Shown piece by piece: positions 29,130 through 37,268 of a stretch of DNA of 64,000 nucleotides. A model generated the notes under the pieces. The model ran no database searches. It saw only the letters and a list, made by a program, of their open reading frames with translations, and was not told where the DNA came from. Origin of the DNA: an uncultured bacterium (GTDB taxonomy: Bacteria; Verrucomicrobiota; Lentisphaeria; Victivallales; UBA1829); assembly GCA_949297765.1 (NCBI GenBank), contig CASFTV010000014.1:1-64000 (forward strand), written 5' to 3'. The stretch's first letter is position 1. Each line of letters starts with the position of its first letter. The translations under genes were made by a program, and so were the position numbers.

Positions 29130-30086
29130 TTACTTCTTCTCCTCCGCTTCTGTCTGAATGGAGAGTTTCCATTCCGGACGTTTGCGGAAGGGGGTTTTGA
29201 AGGACCGTTTCAGAACACCCTTCTCCTCCAGATGGATGTAGCATGCCACATCGCACGCGCGGCCGCAGATGCTGGTCAGATACGCATGTTTGATCGGAGG
29301 ATAGAAAAAGGTTTCGTCGATGATCTGACGGGCGCGCTCCGGAGAGAGCTTCGCCTCGCCGGCGATGATCGCAAGACGGTCCGGTTCATGGAGATAGGCG
29401 TCCGGCGGCATGAACGGATTCTTCGTCATATTGGCGCCGACGTAATAGGCGGCACACTGCCAGCGGTCGACATTTCCAGTTCCGGGATTGATGGCATGTC
29501 CCGGACAGGCCGCCGCGCATTTTCCGCAATGGTCGCAGAGGTGCGGTTCTGCAATCGGGGTCTCTTCCAGTTCCGCATCGGTCAGAATGAAGCAGAGACG
29601 CTGGAACGGACCGAAATCATCCGTCAGCAGCGTTCCGGAAAATCCGCGTTCCCCGAGTCCGCAGAGCACGGCGGCTTCTTCGAAATCCAGCTGGTTTTCC
29701 GCGGATTTTCCCCGGTAGATTTCCGCATAGTTGACCTCCGGATTGGTACTGCCGGTTTCCTGCATGATCAGCTGATTCCGCTTCTGGGGAAGGGCTTCAA
29801 AGCCGGCATCTTCCAGAACGGCGCAGGCGCGGAGCATCGCCATCGGCATGACGGTCTCCTCAATGGTCTCGACGCCCGTGGTGGTGTACTGATAGTAGGT
29901 GGATCCTTCCTCGACACCCCGGTGCGAGCCGCGCAGGACCCGGAAGGCCGCGCCGATGACGGTTTTCGCCTTCGGGAATATCGTGCGTGCGGCGGTGTCG
30001 CGGAATCGTTCGATTCCGCCGAAACCGACAAGATCCGCTCCATGCGCCTTCAGCGTTTCGGAGATTCGTTCGTTCAGCGTTTTCAT
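29130..30086 (-). CDS. QueG-like iron-sulfur protein (1 of 3)
   Basis: Cytoplasmic protein of 318 residues related to the N-terminal and ferredoxin parts of epoxyqueuosine reductase and reductive dehalogenases. It has one full [4Fe-4S] motif C-x2-C-x2-C-x3-CP ('CDHCGKCAAACP') and a C-terminal second group ('CGRACDVAC') with the 'WQC' cysteine between them. The N-terminal domain with 'KAHGADLVGFGGI' resembles the cobalamin-binding part of QueG. It lacks the extra C-terminal repeat domain of many QueG proteins. Its true substrate is unknown. The ATG at 30086 overlaps the upstream stop (ATGA). Confidence 0.78.
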   Translation of the reverse strand: MKTLNERISETLKAHGADLVGFGGIERFRDTAARTIFPKAKTVIGAAFRVLRGSHRGVEEGSTYYQYTTTGVETIEETVMPMAMLRACAVLEDAGFEALPQKRNQLIMQETGSTNPEVNYAEIYRGKSAENQLDFEEAAVLCGLGERGFSGTLLTDDFGPFQRLCFILTDAELEETPIAEPHLCDHCGKCAAACPGHAINPGTGNVDRWQCAAYYVGANMTKNPFMPPDAYLHEPDRLAIIAGEAKLSPERARQIIDETFFYPPIKHAYLTSICGRACDVACYIHLEEKGVLKRSFKTPFRKRPEWKLSIQTEAEEKK

Positions 30087-30994
30087 GAGAGAATTCCTTT
30101 CGCTTTCAGATGATGGTAGCAGGCGAGATCGCATTTTTTCCCGCAGAGGCACGGCGCGTATCCGGTTGACCGGCTCGGAAGGAAATCCAGTTTTTTATAG
30201 ATCGCCCGCGCGCTTTCGCGGTTGAAGACCTTGCTTCCGTTCAGGACGGCTTCCCGCTCGGGATCCCCCTTCAGGAACTCCTCCGTCATGAACGGATTGG
30301 ACTTGTGTGCGCCTCGGTAGTAGACCGCGCACTGCCAGGAGTTGAATTCCCCGTCCGGAGCGATTGCGTGTCCGGGACACGCCTTCACGCATTCGCCGCA
30401 CTTGTCGCAGAGTTTTTCCGCGAACGGGGGGTCGCACTCCAGAGGGGCGTCGGTCACGAGGAACGCAAAGCGGACAAACGGCCCGAACTGCGGTGTGATG
30501 ACCGTGCCCCGCATGCTGACGGAGCCCAGTCCGCAGATCTCCGCGGACTGCCCGAAATCCATGATGACGTCCGGGACGGGCTTGTCGGGCGAGATCGGTT
30601 CGGCATGAACGAGCTCATAGGTGTCGATGAGTTCGGCGTTCGTTGTGTGATCCCCTTTGATCCGCAGGTTGGAGACGTTGCGCTGAAGACAGGCGTCGTA
30701 GCCTTCATTTTCAATCAGTCCGCCCATTTTGAGCAGAAAGATCTCCGCGAAATCCTCGTCGATGTACTTGACCCCGAGCTGGGTGTAGTTGAAGAACTGC
30801 GATCCTTTCTCCATGCTCCCGTACAGCGCGCGGGGAACCCGGAATCCGAATCCGATGACACAGGTTGCCGCGGGGAGAATTTTGCGCGGATCGCGCTGGG
30901 GAATCGTCCCTTCATAGCGGGCGATGTCTCCGATTCCGACGATGTCGGCGCCGAATTCCAGCGCCTTCCGTTTGATCCATTCAGCAGTCAGCAT
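30083..30994 (-). CDS. QueG-like iron-sulfur protein (2 of 3)
   Basis: Paralogue of both neighbours, 303 residues. N-terminal 'EFGADIVGIGDIARYEG', ferredoxin motif 'CDKCGECVKACPGH', the 'SWQCAVYY' cysteine and a C-terminal group 'CGKKCDLAC'. The central signature 'CGLGSVSMRGT' aligns with 'CGLGERGFSGT' and 'CGLGEIGWSK' in the other copies. The ATG at 30994 has AAGGA six bases upstream and is 11 bases after the previous stop. The members differ in most positions, so they are old paralogues that probably have different roles, perhaps as a complex or a series of steps. Confidence 0.78.
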   Translation of the reverse strand: MLTAEWIKRKALEFGADIVGIGDIARYEGTIPQRDPRKILPAATCVIGFGFRVPRALYGSMEKGSQFFNYTQLGVKYIDEDFAEIFLLKMGGLIENEGYDACLQRNVSNLRIKGDHTTNAELIDTYELVHAEPISPDKPVPDVIMDFGQSAEICGLGSVSMRGTVITPQFGPFVRFAFLVTDAPLECDPPFAEKLCDKCGECVKACPGHAIAPDGEFNSWQCAVYYRGAHKSNPFMTEEFLKGDPEREAVLNGSKVFNRESARAIYKKLDFLPSRSTGYAPCLCGKKCDLACYHHLKAKGILS

Positions 30995-31005
30995 GGCAAA
31001 TCCTT

Positions 31006-32073
31006 TCAGCGGTCCATAATCCAGCGTTTTCCGGTGCGGAGCGGCGACTTGAACCGGTGTTCCATGCAGCCGCCCTTCTTTTCCAGCATGCTCACGCAGG
31101 CGCGGATGCAGCCGCCGCACTTCGCCATATTGTATCCGACCCAGGTCGGAAAATATTTTTCCAGCGCTCCGTAGACTTTCATGATCTCCGCTTCGGAGGC
31201 TTTGCATTTGCCTTCCAGAAGGTTGAGATCTCCGTTCTCGTTTTTATCGAACACCTCTTTCGGGACAAACGGATTGAATTTGCGTCCCGCATGGGTGTAG
31301 AAGGCGTAGCATTTCCACTCGTCGAGCTTGCTCCATTCGCACTTTTTCCCGCCGATGTAGACCGTGATGCTCTCCTTCGGATCCAGACACTGTCCCGGAC
31401 ACTCCCGGACACATGCCATGCAGCGGCGGCAGATCGGCGGTCCGCTGTACAGCGGATCGGGTTCGAGCGGGGCGTCGGTGAAGATGAACGCAACCCGTTG
31501 AAGCGGACCGAATTCGGCGGTCAGGAACATCTTGCTCCATCCGATTTCCCCCAGACCGCAGGCAACCGCCGCAAGCCGGAAGTGGAACTGGAGATCCGGC
31601 GCAACCGCTCCTTCCCGGACCGGACGGGTGAACTGCACCGACCGGTGATGCGCGGTTTTGGTCTTCGCCTGTTCATTGATCTCGATCTGTTCTTCGGGCG
31701 AGAGCGAGTTTCCGGGCGAACCGTCCATGTCGGAAACCACTCCGCGGGCGCCGGTGTTGCGGTAGACCGCCGCCTCGTAGCCGTGATCCTCAATGAGTTT
31801 TCCCACCTGATAGAGGACCGCCGGCGCATAGATTTCGTTGATTCCGCCGTACGCCATCGAGGGATACTGGTAGAACTGGGTTCCCTCCTCGATTCCGCGC
31901 TGCACCCCGCGCGGAATCCGGAACACCATGCCGATGACCGTTTTCGCTTCGGGGAAAATGTAGCGCGGATCCATCTCCTTCGGCGCTCCTTCGAAACGCG
32001 CCATGTCGCCGATTCCGCACAGATCGGCTCCGGCGGCGAGCGCCGCCTTCTTTACCATTTCGCTGGTCAGCAT
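31006..32073 (-). CDS. QueG-like iron-sulfur protein (3 of 3)
   Basis: Longest of the three, 355 residues. Ferredoxin motif 'CRRCMACVRECPGQC', the central 'EWKCYAFY' cysteine and C-terminal 'KCGGCIRAC'. It has an insertion of about 30 residues between the N-terminal domain and the 'CGLGEIGW' signature. The N-terminal 'AAGADLCGIGDMARFEG' matches the other two. The ATG at 32073 has AGGAGG eight bases upstream and overlaps the end of the U32-like gene by seven bases. Family known for electron-dependent reduction with cobalamin; here substrate unknown. Confidence 0.78.
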   Translation of the reverse strand: MLTSEMVKKAALAAGADLCGIGDMARFEGAPKEMDPRYIFPEAKTVIGMVFRIPRGVQRGIEEGTQFYQYPSMAYGGINEIYAPAVLYQVGKLIEDHGYEAAVYRNTGARGVVSDMDGSPGNSLSPEEQIEINEQAKTKTAHHRSVQFTRPVREGAVAPDLQFHFRLAAVACGLGEIGWSKMFLTAEFGPLQRVAFIFTDAPLEPDPLYSGPPICRRCMACVRECPGQCLDPKESITVYIGGKKCEWSKLDEWKCYAFYTHAGRKFNPFVPKEVFDKNENGDLNLLEGKCKASEAEIMKVYGALEKYFPTWVGYNMAKCGGCIRACVSMLEKKGGCMEHRFKSPLRTGKRWIMDR

Positions 32074-33104
32074 GAAGCAATTCCTCCTGATTCAAGTATG
32101 ACTTTCGCGTTGCTGAAAATTTCATCGCAGTAGGTGCATGTTCCGCAGTTTCCCGGGCAGTCCAGAACGTGCGCAGCGAATTCCGCCGGGATCCGGCTGT
32201 TTTCCAGAACCGCCGGATAGAACGCCTCCGCATGGTCCGGTTCCATCAGATCCATCAGATTGCCGCTGTACGAGCCGTTCAGATATGCCTCCAGAATCCG
32301 GACCGGATTGCGGCTGCTGCGGGTCGCCAGTTTCACAACATCAAAATAGGGTGCATAGAGAGGGAGGTCTTCCGGACGGACGAAGGTGGTGTCCCGCAGA
32401 TAGTGAATCTGTTTCTCCTTCCGGGCAAGATATTCGTGGCAGAGACCGCGGAACTCATAGGCGTTGTCCATGGCGCGGATCTCCTGTTCGTGCGCCACGA
32501 GATTGTCGTGAAAGTTGTGGACCGAGCAGTGCTTCAGACAGCCGCTGTTCGCCAGAAGATACAGTTTCTTCCCATTTCCGTCGCACCAGGTTTTCAGTTC
32601 TTCGATCCGGGCGCGGCAGCGGTTGAAATCCCGGTTCATATAGTATCCGTCGAACCATTCGGCGAGGTAGTCCATTCCCTGAACGGTGCCGATCTCCATG
32701 TTGACCGACGCACGAATTTCCAGATCCGGAAAATTCTTCTTCAGAAACTTCGCGATCAGCGGCGAGGAGGTCGTTACGGAACGGAGGAGAAACCGGTTTG
32801 CGAGCCATTCCGTGGAATTGCCGATCTTCTCAAAAAAACTCCGCGACTGGCTCTCCCTTCCGTAACAGTTCCCGTTCAGAAGCAGATTGAGTCCGATTCC
32901 CTCGTCCGAGAGGAGTTTCAGATCCTCCGCAAGCAGTGTCTGCGCCTCCCATGGAAGAAGTTCCCCCTGTTCCAGCGGGACGCCGCGGCCGGTCGGAATA
33001 TCCCCCCACGGAAAATAGACCTCGGAAATCCGCTCCTTTGCGCGGATCACCGCCGCGAGCAGATCCTCCCGCACATTCAGCTGGTAGCCTGCCATGAATT
33101 TCAT
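32067..33104 (-). CDS. Peptidase U32-like protein
   Basis: Cytoplasmic protein of 345 residues that resembles the TIM-barrel family U32 (collagenase-like, including the subunits of hydroxylases UbiU/UbiV and RlhA). Visible are an N-terminal 'AGYQLNVREDLLAAV', an 'EIGTVQGMDYLAEWFDGYYM' barrel strand and a cysteine-rich region near the C terminus ('CPGNCGTCTYC'), which may bind an iron-sulfur cluster as in UbiU/V. Many members modify tRNA, rRNA or cofactors rather than cut proteins. It heads the operon with three QueG-like proteins and is driven by a near-consensus promoter. Function not resolved. Confidence 0.72.
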   Translation of the reverse strand: MKFMAGYQLNVREDLLAAVIRAKERISEVYFPWGDIPTGRGVPLEQGELLPWEAQTLLAEDLKLLSDEGIGLNLLLNGNCYGRESQSRSFFEKIGNSTEWLANRFLLRSVTTSSPLIAKFLKKNFPDLEIRASVNMEIGTVQGMDYLAEWFDGYYMNRDFNRCRARIEELKTWCDGNGKKLYLLANSGCLKHCSVHNFHDNLVAHEQEIRAMDNAYEFRGLCHEYLARKEKQIHYLRDTTFVRPEDLPLYAPYFDVVKLATRSSRNPVRILEAYLNGSYSGNLMDLMEPDHAEAFYPAVLENSRIPAEFAAHVLDCPGNCGTCTYCDEIFSNAKVILESGGIASC

Positions 33105-33143: not shown

Positions 33144-33172
33144 ATTATACATCAGATTCGGAAAAAAGTCAA
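33144..33172 (-). promoter_or_regulatory. Sigma-70 promoter of the U32/QueG-like operon
   Basis: Minus-strand TTGACT (33172-33167), 17-base spacer, TATAAT (33149-33144). The -10 is 40 bases before the ATG at 33104. Confidence 0.8.
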
Positions 33173-33264: not shown

Positions 33265-33282
33265 TGCGTAAAAATTTACGCA
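33265..33282. promoter_or_regulatory. Candidate LacI-type operator
   Basis: Perfect palindrome TGCGTAAA-AA-TTTACGCA in the divergent spacer, 75 bases before the LacI gene at 33357 and about 93 bases from the divergent -35. Shape and position suit autoregulation of the LacI-nahK operon. Confidence 0.5.
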
Positions 33283-33356: not shown

Positions 33357-34337
33357 ATGAGAAACCGGATTACGATTCAGGAATTTGCGGGGAAGGCGGG
33401 GGTCTCTATTGCGACGGTGTCGCGGGCGTTCACCGGAAACGGACGCATCAGCCCGGAGACGCGGAAACGGATTTTTGAAATTGCCCGGAAATACGGTTAC
33501 AGCTCCGGTCTCCGCAAACTGAAATCGGAGAACGATCTTCCGGAACTGGTGTTCTTCTATCCGGAACTCTATTCGGGCGAACCGGATTATTTCACGGCGG
33601 AGATCACCGTGAACATCAAACGGCATCTCGGCAACGAGCATGTGTTCACGGTGACGCCGTTCGACGAACACGACGATCATGTGATTGATTCGGCGAAAAC
33701 GCGGATGCTGAACGGCTCGATTGCGGGAATCATTGTCGTTGCCGGAACTCCCGGAGCGGGTAAACTTGCGGAGATGGCGGAAAGCTGTTCGGTTCCCTAT
33801 GTCCTGATCGGGAAGATTCCCGGGTTCCACTGCAACACGGTTCTGCACGACAATGAATACGGTGCGTTTCTGGCGGGGAAATATTTCCGGGAGACCGGAC
33901 GGAGCCATCCGGTCTATCTTTCCGGCCATCTGGACAGCGCAAAACGGCTCGGATTCAAGCGCGGGTTCGGCGGATCGGGCCGGATTCCGGTCATTCCGGG
34001 CGGGGCGGGATTCCGTTTCGGGGTCAACGCCCTGAACTACATCCGGACCCGCCATCCCGAGGCCGACTGTGTGCTCTGCGCTACGGACGTGATGGCGATG
34101 GGGCTGCTGAAAGAGGCGGAAAAACGCGGAGTCCGCGTTCCGGAGGATCTGGCGGTGATCGGATTCGACGACATTGCCGCGTCACGGTTTTTCACTCCGG
34201 CGCTTTCCTCGGTCTCTCTTCATCTGGGAACGATCGGGAAGGTGGCGGCGGAACTGCTGGAACGGCAGCTCCGGGGGAAAACCAATCTTCCGCCGGAAAT
34301 CGTTCCCTGCGATCTGGTGTTACGACAATCAACATAA
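33357..34337 (+). CDS. LacI-family transcriptional regulator
   Basis: Regulator of 326 residues with a canonical LacI helix-turn-helix ('TIQEFAGKAGVSIATVSRAF', about 5-24) and a sugar-binding domain with 'EDLAVIGFDDIAASRF'. It is the first gene of an operon with a nucleotidyltransferase, a NahK-like kinase and an epimerase, and is 14 bases from the next start. The ATG at 33357 has GGAG very close; AGAGAG further up may serve. The ligand is probably an amino sugar or related product, inferred from context. Confidence 0.9.
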   Translation: MRNRITIQEFAGKAGVSIATVSRAFTGNGRISPETRKRIFEIARKYGYSSGLRKLKSENDLPELVFFYPELYSGEPDYFTAEITVNIKRHLGNEHVFTVTPFDEHDDHVIDSAKTRMLNGSIAGIIVVAGTPGAGKLAEMAESCSVPYVLIGKIPGFHCNTVLHDNEYGAFLAGKYFRETGRSHPVYLSGHLDSAKRLGFKRGFGGSGRIPVIPGGAGFRFGVNALNYIRTRHPEADCVLCATDVMAMGLLKEAEKRGVRVPEDLAVIGFDDIAASRFFTPALSSVSLHLGTIGKVAAELLERQLRGKTNLPPEIVPCDLVLRQST

Positions 34338-34351
34338 GGAGGTTCGGATCA

Positions 34352-35263
34352 ATGAAGGAAAAAACTCTGGTTCTTCTCGCCGCCGGAATGGGCAGCCGCT
34401 ACGGCGGACTCAAACAGCTCGACGCCCTCGGGCCGCACGGAGAAACTCTGATGGACTATTCGGTGTATGACGCGGTCCGCGCGGGATTCCGGAAGATCGT
34501 GTTTGTGATCCGCCGGGATATCGAAGAGGAGTTCAAACGCGTGATCGGCGCACGATACGAGTCGGCCGCCGAGATCGCCTATGCGTTTCAGTCGCTGGAG
34601 GATCTTCCCGCCGGATTCCAGGTCCCCGAAGGACGGACCAAACCCTGGGGAACGGGACAGGCGGTCTATGCCGCGCGCCATCAGGTCCGGGGGCCGTTCG
34701 CGGTGATCAATGCCGACGACTTTTACGGGGCCGACGGATTCCGGAAACTCTCCGCCGCGCTGGAAGACGGCTCTCCGGACGAGTTCTGCATGTGCGGTTT
34801 TCTGCTGCGGAATACACTGTCGGAAAACGGTTCGGTTTCCCGCGGCGTCTGTGAACTCAATGCCGATTCCACCTTGAAGACCATTCGGGAACACACCTGC
34901 ATCGAACGGAAGGAAGGACGCATCGTCAGCACCGGTGCGGACGGGTCCGTCACCGTGTTTACGGGCAGCGAGATCGTCTCCATGAACATGTGGGGCTTTC
35001 AGGACTCGCTGTTCGGTTTCCTTGAGCCTCTCTTTTCGGAATTTCTCCGGGAGCACGGATCGGAAGTGAAAAGCGAATTCTACATTCCGTTTGCCGCGGA
35101 TGCTCTGATCCGCCGCGGTCAGGCGTCTGTGAAGGTTCTGACTTCCGGGGACTCCTGGTTCGGCGTCACCTATCGGGAGGACAAGGAAACCGTCCGCCGC
35201 GGACTGGAAGCCCTGATCCGCTCCGGCGCCTATCCGGAACAGCTTTTCCAGGTGAAGCAATGA
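34352..35263 (+). CDS. Sugar-1-phosphate nucleotidyltransferase
   Basis: GT-A-fold nucleotidyltransferase of 303 residues. The N-terminal 'LLAAGMGSRYGGLKQ' is the nucleotide-binding loop and 'VINADDFYG' holds the metal aspartate. In the lacto-N-biose/galacto-N-biose operon of bifidobacteria a uridylyltransferase accompanies the HexNAc kinase and the 4-epimerase; here this gene takes that place, so it likely makes UDP-HexNAc or UDP-Gal from the 1-phosphate. AAGGAGG precedes the ATG. It overlaps nahK by four bases (ATGA). Confidence 0.82.
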   Translation: MKEKTLVLLAAGMGSRYGGLKQLDALGPHGETLMDYSVYDAVRAGFRKIVFVIRRDIEEEFKRVIGARYESAAEIAYAFQSLEDLPAGFQVPEGRTKPWGTGQAVYAARHQVRGPFAVINADDFYGADGFRKLSAALEDGSPDEFCMCGFLLRNTLSENGSVSRGVCELNADSTLKTIREHTCIERKEGRIVSTGADGSVTVFTGSEIVSMNMWGFQDSLFGFLEPLFSEFLREHGSEVKSEFYIPFAADALIRRGQASVKVLTSGDSWFGVTYREDKETVRRGLEALIRSGAYPEQLFQVKQ

Positions 35264-36348
35264 AAAGTCTGAAGGAAATCCGGAATCTCTGTTCCCGGTT
35301 TGCCGTTCCGGGTGATTTTGTGTCGGCGGAACCCTACGGGAGCGGACATATCAACGATACCTATGCTGTGACGTTCGATCAGGCGGGAAGCCGGATCCGC
35401 TACATTCTCCAGCGTCTCAACACGGTGGTGTTCCGCGATCCGGTCGGGCTGATGGAGAACATCCGCCGCGTGACGGGGCATCTCGCCGCGAAGAACGGAG
35501 ATTCCCGCAGCACGCTGACCCTTGTCCCCGCGCTCGACGGAAACGTCTGGATCTGCGACGGGGACGGAAACTACTGGCGCATCTATCTGTTCATCGAGCA
35601 CGCAAAGAGTTTCGACGTGCTGGAAACTGCGGATCAGGCCTACGAGGCGGCAAAGGCGTTCGGGAAGTTTCAGGCGGATCTCACCGATCTTCCCGGACGT
35701 CTGACGGAAACGATCCCCGATTTTCACAATACGCCGAAACGGATTGCACAGCTGGAAGAGGCGATCCGGGCGGATGTCTGCGGCCGTGTCCGTTCCGCGG
35801 AACGGGAGATTGAATTTGTCCTTTCCCGGAAGGAGGAGGCCGGAACGCTGATCCGTCTGAACCGGGAAGGGGCGATTCCCGAACGCATCACTCACAACGA
35901 CACCAAGCTCAACAACGTGCTGATCGACACGGAGTCCGGACACGGAATCTGCGTGATCGACCTGGATACCGTCATGCCCGGCCTCGCCCACTATGATTTC
36001 GGCGACATGGTCCGCACCGGGACCAGTCCAGCCGCCGAGGACGAGCGTGATCTGAGCCGGGTGGAAATGCGTTTCCCCATGTTCGAAGCTCTTCTCCGCG
36101 GCTACTGCGCCTCCGCCGGAGCGTTTCTCAATCCGGTGGAGTTCGAGTACCTTCCGTTCAGCGGAAAACTGATTACGCTGGAGATCGGAACACGTTTCCT
36201 TGCCGACTACCTTGCCGGAGACATCTATTTCAAAATCCACCGCGACGGCCATAATCTTGACCGCGCACGAACTCAATTTGCGCTTGTTCAGTCCATCGAG
36301 CGGCAGATGGACCGCATGAACGCGCTTGTCAGGGAGATCCAGAAATGA
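35260..36348 (+). CDS. nahK: N-acetylhexosamine 1-kinase-like phosphotransferase
   Basis: Anomeric kinase of 362 residues in the aminoglycoside/choline kinase fold. The catalytic loop 'THNDTKLNN' contains H212 and D214 and is followed by 'VIDLDTVMPG' with metal-binding D234; this pair is characteristic of NahK (LnpB) of Bifidobacterium, which makes GlcNAc-1-P or GalNAc-1-P from the free sugar and ATP. Length matches (about 359). Overlaps of four bases on both sides show a tight operon with the nucleotidyltransferase and epimerase. It would let the cell charge HexNAc freed from mucin or N-glycans. Confidence 0.88.
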   Translation: MKSLKEIRNLCSRFAVPGDFVSAEPYGSGHINDTYAVTFDQAGSRIRYILQRLNTVVFRDPVGLMENIRRVTGHLAAKNGDSRSTLTLVPALDGNVWICDGDGNYWRIYLFIEHAKSFDVLETADQAYEAAKAFGKFQADLTDLPGRLTETIPDFHNTPKRIAQLEEAIRADVCGRVRSAEREIEFVLSRKEEAGTLIRLNREGAIPERITHNDTKLNNVLIDTESGHGICVIDLDTVMPGLAHYDFGDMVRTGTSPAAEDERDLSRVEMRFPMFEALLRGYCASAGAFLNPVEFEYLPFSGKLITLEIGTRFLADYLAGDIYFKIHRDGHNLDRARTQFALVQSIERQMDRMNALVREIQK

Positions 36349-37268
36349 AACGAATCCTTATTACCGGCGGCGCCGGCTTCATCGGCAGCCACATTGCGGA
36401 ACACTTCAGCGGGAAGGCGGAAATCCGCATTCTTGACAATCTGCGCTCCGGCTACCGGAGCAATCTGGACGGACTCGACGTGGAATTCATCGAAGGGGAC
36501 ATCCGCGACCGCGCCGCCGTAGCGAAGGCGGTCGAAGGGTGCGATCATGTCTTTCATCTCGCCGCGATGGTCAGCGTGCCGGAATCCATGTTCAAAATCG
36601 GGGAGTGTGTCGATATCAACGTGAACGGTCTTCTGACCGTTCTGGAGGAGTCCGCGAAGGCGGGCGTCGAAAAACTCTGCTTCAGCAGCAGTGCCGCGAT
36701 CTACGGCGACAATCCGGTCGTCCCGAAAGTCGAAACGATGCTTCCCGAACCGAAAAGCCCCTACGCCATCACGAAGCTGGACGGCGAGTACTACTGCAAT
36801 CTCTTCACGCAGACCGGAAAACTGAAAACCGCCTGTCTCCGCTATTTCAATGTGTTCGGTCCGCGGCAGGATCCGAAGAGCGCCTACGCGGCCGCGGTTC
36901 CGATCTTCACGGCGAAGGCCGTCGCCGGCGAGGAGATCACCGTGTTCGGAGACGGCGAACAGACGCGTGATTTCATCTATGTGAAAGATATTGTCGAAGC
37001 CAACGTTTTTATGGCGGAACATGAGTTCACGGGCGTTTACAACATCGCCTACGGCGGATCCATCACGATCAACGATCTGGTCGCCCGGATTGTGAAAGTG
37101 ACCTCTTCCCGGAGCCGGATTGTCCATCTGGACGAGCGGCCGGGAGATGTCAAACATTCGATGGCTTCTGTCGACCGCCTCCGTTCAACCGGATTCCGTC
37201 CGAAACACGATTTTGATGCGGGGATGGAGCAGACCATCCGTTTCTTCTCCGCTCGGAAGTCTCTCTGA
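36345..37268 (+). CDS. UDP-sugar 4-epimerase (GalE/WbpP-like SDR)
   Basis: Extended SDR of 307 residues with GGAGFIG at 8-14, 'SSSAAIYGD' around the catalytic serine and the Tyr-Lys motif 'YAITK'. The sequence around it ('SPYAITKLDGEYYC', 'RYFNVFGPRQDP') resembles the group that interconverts UDP-GlcNAc and UDP-GalNAc, which fits the NahK partner. It is the last gene of the operon, followed by a strong terminator. UDP-Glc/UDP-Gal activity remains possible. Confidence 0.88.
   Translation: MKRILITGGAGFIGSHIAEHFSGKAEIRILDNLRSGYRSNLDGLDVEFIEGDIRDRAAVAKAVEGCDHVFHLAAMVSVPESMFKIGECVDINVNGLLTVLEESAKAGVEKLCFSSSAAIYGDNPVVPKVETMLPEPKSPYAITKLDGEYYCNLFTQTGKLKTACLRYFNVFGPRQDPKSAYAAAVPIFTAKAVAGEEITVFGDGEQTRDFIYVKDIVEANVFMAEHEFTGVYNIAYGGSITINDLVARIVKVTSSRSRIVHLDERPGDVKHSMASVDRLRSTGFRPKHDFDAGMEQTIRFFSARKSL

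Follow-up and report, generated by a model that had tools for sequence, protein, structure and literature searches.

A conserved gut-bacterial gene cassette that pairs a U32-like protein with three class III corrinoid-type paralogues and may encode an anaerobic catabolic reductase

To our knowledge, just two jobs have been described for class III corrinoid enzymes. They are named as dehalogenation and epoxyqueuosine reduction (PMC7585037), and in the dehalogenase PceA two active-site residues, Tyr246 and Arg305, are essential while Asn272 assists (PMC11921367, PMC5500849). For the U32 family, one precedent is UbiU-UbiV, which serves quinone hydroxylation with a [4Fe-4S] cluster in the anaerobic ubiquinone pathway (PMC6747719); RlhA and TrhP are U32 proteins with RNA as their target (PMC6599085). 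In the open-licence PMC literature we found neither a corrinoid-type partner for the U32 family nor a paper on the gene set analysed here, in which a U32-like gene (U) precedes three QueG-like paralogues (Q1, Q2 and Q3).

The set lies on the minus strand of a 64,000-nucleotide stretch of DNA, the whole of which we call the window. U, coding for a U32-like TIM-barrel protein, occupies positions 32067-33104 and Q1, coding for a class III corrinoid-type protein, 31006-32073; Q2 (30083-30994) and Q3 (29130-30086) encode the second and third paralogues, each with its own tree clade and eight Fe-S cysteines. A preliminary description of the region 29130-33104 had delimited the same four open reading frames, correctly, and had taken them for one operon with a near-consensus promoter. 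Both claims hold: U and Q1 overlap by 7 bp, Q1 and Q2 are 11 bp apart and Q2 and Q3 overlap by 4 bp, and a promoter-like site, TTGACT-17-TATAAT (33144-33172, minus strand), agrees with the consensus at 11 of 12 positions and lies 40 bp upstream of U, where chance would supply 0.5 such sites in the stretch scanned.

Divergent from the operon is a LacI-family gene (33357-34337, plus strand; PF00356 and PF13377), a candidate regulator of it, and the gap between the two holds an 18-bp palindrome, TGCGTAAA-AA-TTTACGCA (33265-33282, strandless). The palindrome occurs once in the 4.2 Mb genome, even when up to two mismatches are allowed, which is what the operator of a purely local regulator would show and makes it a candidate LacI operator. 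A search upstream of U in ten loci of other carriers did not find the palindrome, and a shared operator was rejected. Orthology between the LacI protein of the window and the regulators at other cassettes was rejected as well: identity is just 23-26%, so that regulators appear to have been exchanged. A B12 riboswitch could be dismissed, with no Rfam match across the whole window. The LacI gene is itself followed by tightly packed genes for an NTP transferase, an APH-type kinase and an NAD epimerase (33357-37268 for the group, plus strand); the group resembles a sugar-1-kinase/uridylyltransferase/epimerase set and may share its LacI regulator with the cassette.

The Q proteins are remote from the enzymes they most resemble. 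Q1, Q2 and Q3 score 23.6, 45.7 and 30.4 bits against the QueG model TIGR00276 (equivalog cut-off 200) and 39.5, 42.8 and 44.5 bits against the reductive dehalogenase model TIGR02486 (cut-off 160), and a Q-family profile finds PceA-type dehalogenases in the PDB at 3e-18 and QueG at 8e-9. A Foldseek search with the model of Q1, much of which is low-confidence (pLDDT 73.5), returned 46 PDB matches at E<=0.001; among the matches listed, all were dehalogenases (PceA, NpRdhA) or QueG, with the B12 chaperone CblD coming after these two groups. The modelled fold, a corrinoid domain with a double-cluster domain, places Q1-Q3 in the class III corrinoid (QueG/reductive-dehalogenase) superfamily. All three also carry a ferredoxin motif (CxxCxxCxxxC), a W(Q/K)C cysteine and a C-terminal cysteine group, as the preliminary description had noted, and these eight cysteines and the tryptophan are conserved at a level of at least 95% across 85 Q1, 79 Q2 and 73 Q3 sequences; the two-cluster set C215, C218, C221, C225, C255, C319, C322 and C326 is near-invariant in each family. 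That the genes are three diverged QueG-like paralogues is likewise borne out. The genome encodes CobS, and the last step of cobamide assembly is thus available to it. A further QueG/dehalogenase-like protein of the same genome, the fourth and encoded singly, is 270-280 amino acids long (G000:C16:78908-79321; L073:8525-9334) and again below both cut-offs.

The kinship of U with the U32 family is visible mainly in its predicted structure. U itself has no match at E<1 in Pfam or NCBIfam, does not reach the gathering score of PF01136, and shows very weak similarity to E. coli U32 proteins by hhalign; among 23 U homologues, ten touch PF01136 weakly (best E=0.0015). The AlphaFold model (pLDDT 88.6), however, finds a U32 protein, 5d88, first among Foldseek matches in the PDB (E=4.9e-10, the next being 1.3e-4). 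The preliminary label of U as U32-like therefore survives as a statement about fold, which the model argues for, and not as a match of U to the family profile. A set of candidate ligands, C80, C189, C193 and C222 together with H199 and H205, is constant in 120 of 120 sequences, and the four cysteines are a predicted [4Fe-4S] site. A second, C-terminal cluster (C316, C320, C323 and C326), which had also been pointed out, is indeed present in the U of the window; as an essential feature it has to be abandoned, since 25 of 91 close homologues lack it. In some Clostridia cassettes (L100, L106, L128 and 22 more loci) U stops near residue 302, without the four-cysteine cluster.

How widely is the set shared? 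We took 80 loci from a collection of 84,980 species and found the order U-Q1-Q2-Q3 in 62 of them, most others being cut by contig ends; U is divergent from the three Q genes in two loci and last in one. Looking for conserved neighbours in other anaerobes, a check suggested in the preliminary description, thus gave a strong association. By record label, the loci belong to Bacillota (63), Lentisphaerae/Victivallales (11), Opitutales (3) and Planctomycetia (2), with one unassigned. The carriers, from Lentisphaeria, Opitutales, Planctomycetia and Clostridia, are all metagenome-assembled genomes or uncultured isolates, mostly from ruminant gut; mis-binning can falsify such taxon labels, though hardly across dozens of independent bins. 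Identity to the window is 71-92% for Q1, save three loci at 58-68%, and 47-63% for U. In a tree of 14 cassettes and seven relatives, Q1, Q2 and Q3 each form one clade, indicating that the set diverged before it spread, and inside each clade the Clostridia stand apart from the other phyla, as parallel histories would have it. U and the three Q genes make up a unit of four that several phyla of gut bacteria have conserved.

Within the phylum of the window the unit is patchy, a close Q1 being found in 29 of 388 genomes. A survey of 241 genomes from the phylum gave 43 with a Q-family protein (E<1e-50), U being encoded in 38 of them; for close Q proteins (E<1e-100) the association is 37 of 37, versus 18 of 204 other genomes, counts that kinship inflates, although the 37 genomes cover 21 genera. 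Where Q genes lack an adjoining U, U is found elsewhere in the genome, as for the Q1-Q3 of one single-contig genome. Conversely, 17 genomes have U without Q, so that U has further roles as well. Relatives with U and one or two Q genes come with different regulators, for example IclR-like or AraC, and look like members of a substrate-diversified catabolic family. Two other arrangements may be recorded. Three loci (L065, L067 and L070, in G027, G015 and G008) hold two to five diverged U-type genes in tandem, adjoining glycosyltransferase genes and a MetH-like gene, in genomes with no Q gene at E<1e-50. A separate two-gene Q subfamily, with proteins of about 380 and about 300 amino acids (G145:C17, G229:C125, G237:C34 and G252:C115), is carried by genomes that lack U at that threshold, E<1e-50.

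Since single QueG proteins modify tRNA, an obvious candidate function is epoxyqueuosine reduction. The genome encodes QueA (375 bits) and QueH (170 bits) elsewhere, and the search for a true queG proposed in the preliminary description found none above cut-off; no Q copy emerged as the only QueG of the genome. It is therefore QueH that accounts for the epoxyqueuosine step. We reject a role for Q1-Q3 as tRNA epoxyqueuosine reductase on these grounds and on their scores below the QueG cut-off, in agreement with the earlier suggestion of a function other than queuosine.

To compare active sites, we mapped Tyr246, Asn272 and Arg305 of PceA by HMMER alignment and ungapped extension to residues 82, 106 and 193 of Q1. 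The Arg305 column is arginine in 85/85 Q1, 79/79 Q2 and 72/73 Q3 sequences, and the Asn272 column is asparagine in all Q1 sequences and constant in Q1 only. The Tyr246 column, in contrast, holds Tyr in 20 and Phe in 61 of 85 Q1 sequences, Leu, Met or Phe in Q2, and nearly always Val or Ile in Q3; as this part of the HMMER alignment has a low score, the departure from Tyr is probable rather than certain. The Q1 of the window does have the PceA-like Tyr-Asn-Arg set, but this does not extend across the family, where Tyr is mostly Phe, and we therefore reject a canonical dehalogenase; the proton donor of Q1 probably differs from that of dehalogenases. Near-invariant columns number 179 in Q1, where 68 are specific to it, compared with 87 in Q2 and 76 in Q3; many lie in a loop at about residues 104-149. 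The residue pattern makes Q1, by far the most conserved member, the likeliest catalytic subunit, with Q2 and Q3 as likely helpers, although they may instead be independent enzymes.

The surroundings of the cassettes hint at a substrate. An AraC-family gene is present at 54 of 80 loci, usually divergent from U, and LacI at several others. Nearby or downstream genes encode DUF5696 (19 loci; no mention of it was found in the open-licence PMC literature), GH88-like, GH28, GH43 and GH116 proteins, aldose epimerase, a xylose-isomerase-like TIM barrel, Gfo/Idh/MocA proteins, a glycyl-radical enzyme with its activase, and MFS and ABC sugar transporters. A small family of WbuC-like cupins occurs at 13 loci (for example L085:10111-10446 and L141:10956-11339), between Q1 and Q2 in ten. 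One locus (L166:8225-10414) has a lone Q gene beside an opposite-strand URO-D family gene and a DUF4838 protein, which may point to corrinoid methyl transfer. A gene for a dedicated electron donor was not seen, and no catabolic gene is universal among the neighbours, which differ from locus to locus, so that any substrate class is a guess. Taken together, patchy occurrence, AraC/LacI regulators and glycan genes favour a role in the inducible breakdown of some small compound from the diet. The preliminary description had left a choice between RNA, a cofactor and a carbon source; the carbon source is thereby favoured and the other two are disfavoured.

We tentatively propose, while rating it somewhat below an even chance, that the products of the four genes make up a single anaerobic reductase of several components, serving the inducible catabolism of some small molecule encountered as plant or other dietary glycans are degraded. 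Catalysis would fall to Q1, as a class III corrinoid protein of the cytoplasm that holds a cobamide beside two [4Fe-4S] clusters. Q2 and Q3 would be diverged sister subunits that have kept the clusters and lost Q1-type active-site residues, and would most probably serve electron transfer or the assembly of the complex, whereas the TIM barrel of U, with its own putative [4Fe-4S] site, might bind or activate the substrate. Together they could remove an oxygen substituent, a hydroxyl or ether, reductively and free of O2. Cobamide binding, the division of labour, the substrate class and C-O cleavage are all things that we infer. The fully specified version, in which a three-paralogue class III corrinoid complex and a U32 [4Fe-4S] partner form a four-phyla gut cassette for reductive C-O cleavage in a sugar-type or plant-derived molecule, is possible but more doubtful.

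Other functions can be imagined for the same genes. If Q1 acted on a halogenated metabolite of plant or environmental origin and released its halide, the set would be a reductive dehalogenase for natural organohalides, as its best structural and profile matches, its near-universal counterpart of PceA Arg305 and the Asn272 equivalent of all Q1 proteins might lead one to expect. We consider this unlikely: the Tyr essential in dehalogenases (PMC11921367) is Phe in 61/85 Q1 sequences, scores of about 39-45 bits fall far short of 160, and a recurring membrane anchor gene is missing from the neighbourhood, which holds glycan genes. The URO-D family includes corrinoid methyltransferases. One Q gene adjoins a member of that family, glycan genes are nearby and the chaperone CblD, whose family has a nitroreductase-like corrinoid fold, is also matched, all of which would suit O-demethylation, or some other ether cleavage, acting on methylated sugars or on plant compounds with methoxyl groups; the corrinoid would pass on the methyl group and U would act as a methyl-acceptor or donor barrel. 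Yet the URO-D neighbour is a single case, QueG and dehalogenases are not methyltransferases and a folate methyltransferase is not a recurrent neighbour of the cassette, and we give this reading the same slim prospects.

RNA modification, with U hydroxylating and Q1-Q3 reducing a nucleoside, would follow the examples of QueG, whose target is tRNA, and of RlhA and TrhP, which act on RNA (PMC6599085). It sits poorly with a close Q1 in only 29/388 phylum genomes, with local LacI/AraC control in a carbohydrate neighbourhood and with QueA and QueH covering queuosine, and we regard it as quite improbable. More improbable again is a step in a cofactor or quinone pathway: anaerobic ubiquinone hydroxylation by UbiU-UbiV with a [4Fe-4S] cluster (PMC6747719) is a U32 precedent, but no cofactor-biosynthesis neighbour recurs, the regulators are of inducible type and the set is accessory.

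A catabolic U-Q enzyme is probably undescribed to date, judged by open-licence PMC papers. Were the proposed reductase real, it would give class III corrinoid enzymes a third job, carried out by a four-gene unit that ruminant and other gut anaerobes hold alongside genes for glycan degradation, reveal a step in the use of dietary carbon that depends on B12 and is overlooked by current annotation, and provide the U32 family with a corrinoid-type partner.

Compared with the reductive dehalogenases (PceA, 4uqu; NpRdhA, 4ras; TIGR02486), the Q proteins are alike in class III fold and in two [4Fe-4S] cysteine sets, with equivalents of PceA Arg305 in nearly all Q and of Asn272 in all Q1; they differ in scoring far under the cut-off, in forming three paralogues with a U32 partner, and in the essential Tyr, in whose place Q1 mostly has Phe and Q3 an aliphatic residue. 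With QueG (TIGR00276; 5d08, 5d6s) they share the superfamily, a cytoplasmic location and the 4+1+3 cysteine arrangement. However, their scores of about 24-46 bits do not approach the cut-off of 200, their Arg193 motif is of the dehalogenase type, and the set is an accessory cassette that a genome already equipped with QueH does not need for the epoxyqueuosine step. U, for its part, resembles the U32 O2-independent hydroxylases UbiU, UbiV, TrhP and RlhA in its U32 fold and four invariant cysteines, whose spacing (CXnCX3CX28C) does not match theirs (CX6CX16CX38C in UbiU and CXnCX12CX3C in UbiV; PMC6747719). The motif RASVN stands in U at the place of HVSVQ in UbiU, the motif His being Arg, and while the partner in UbiU-UbiV is a second U32 protein, the partners of U are corrinoid-type proteins.
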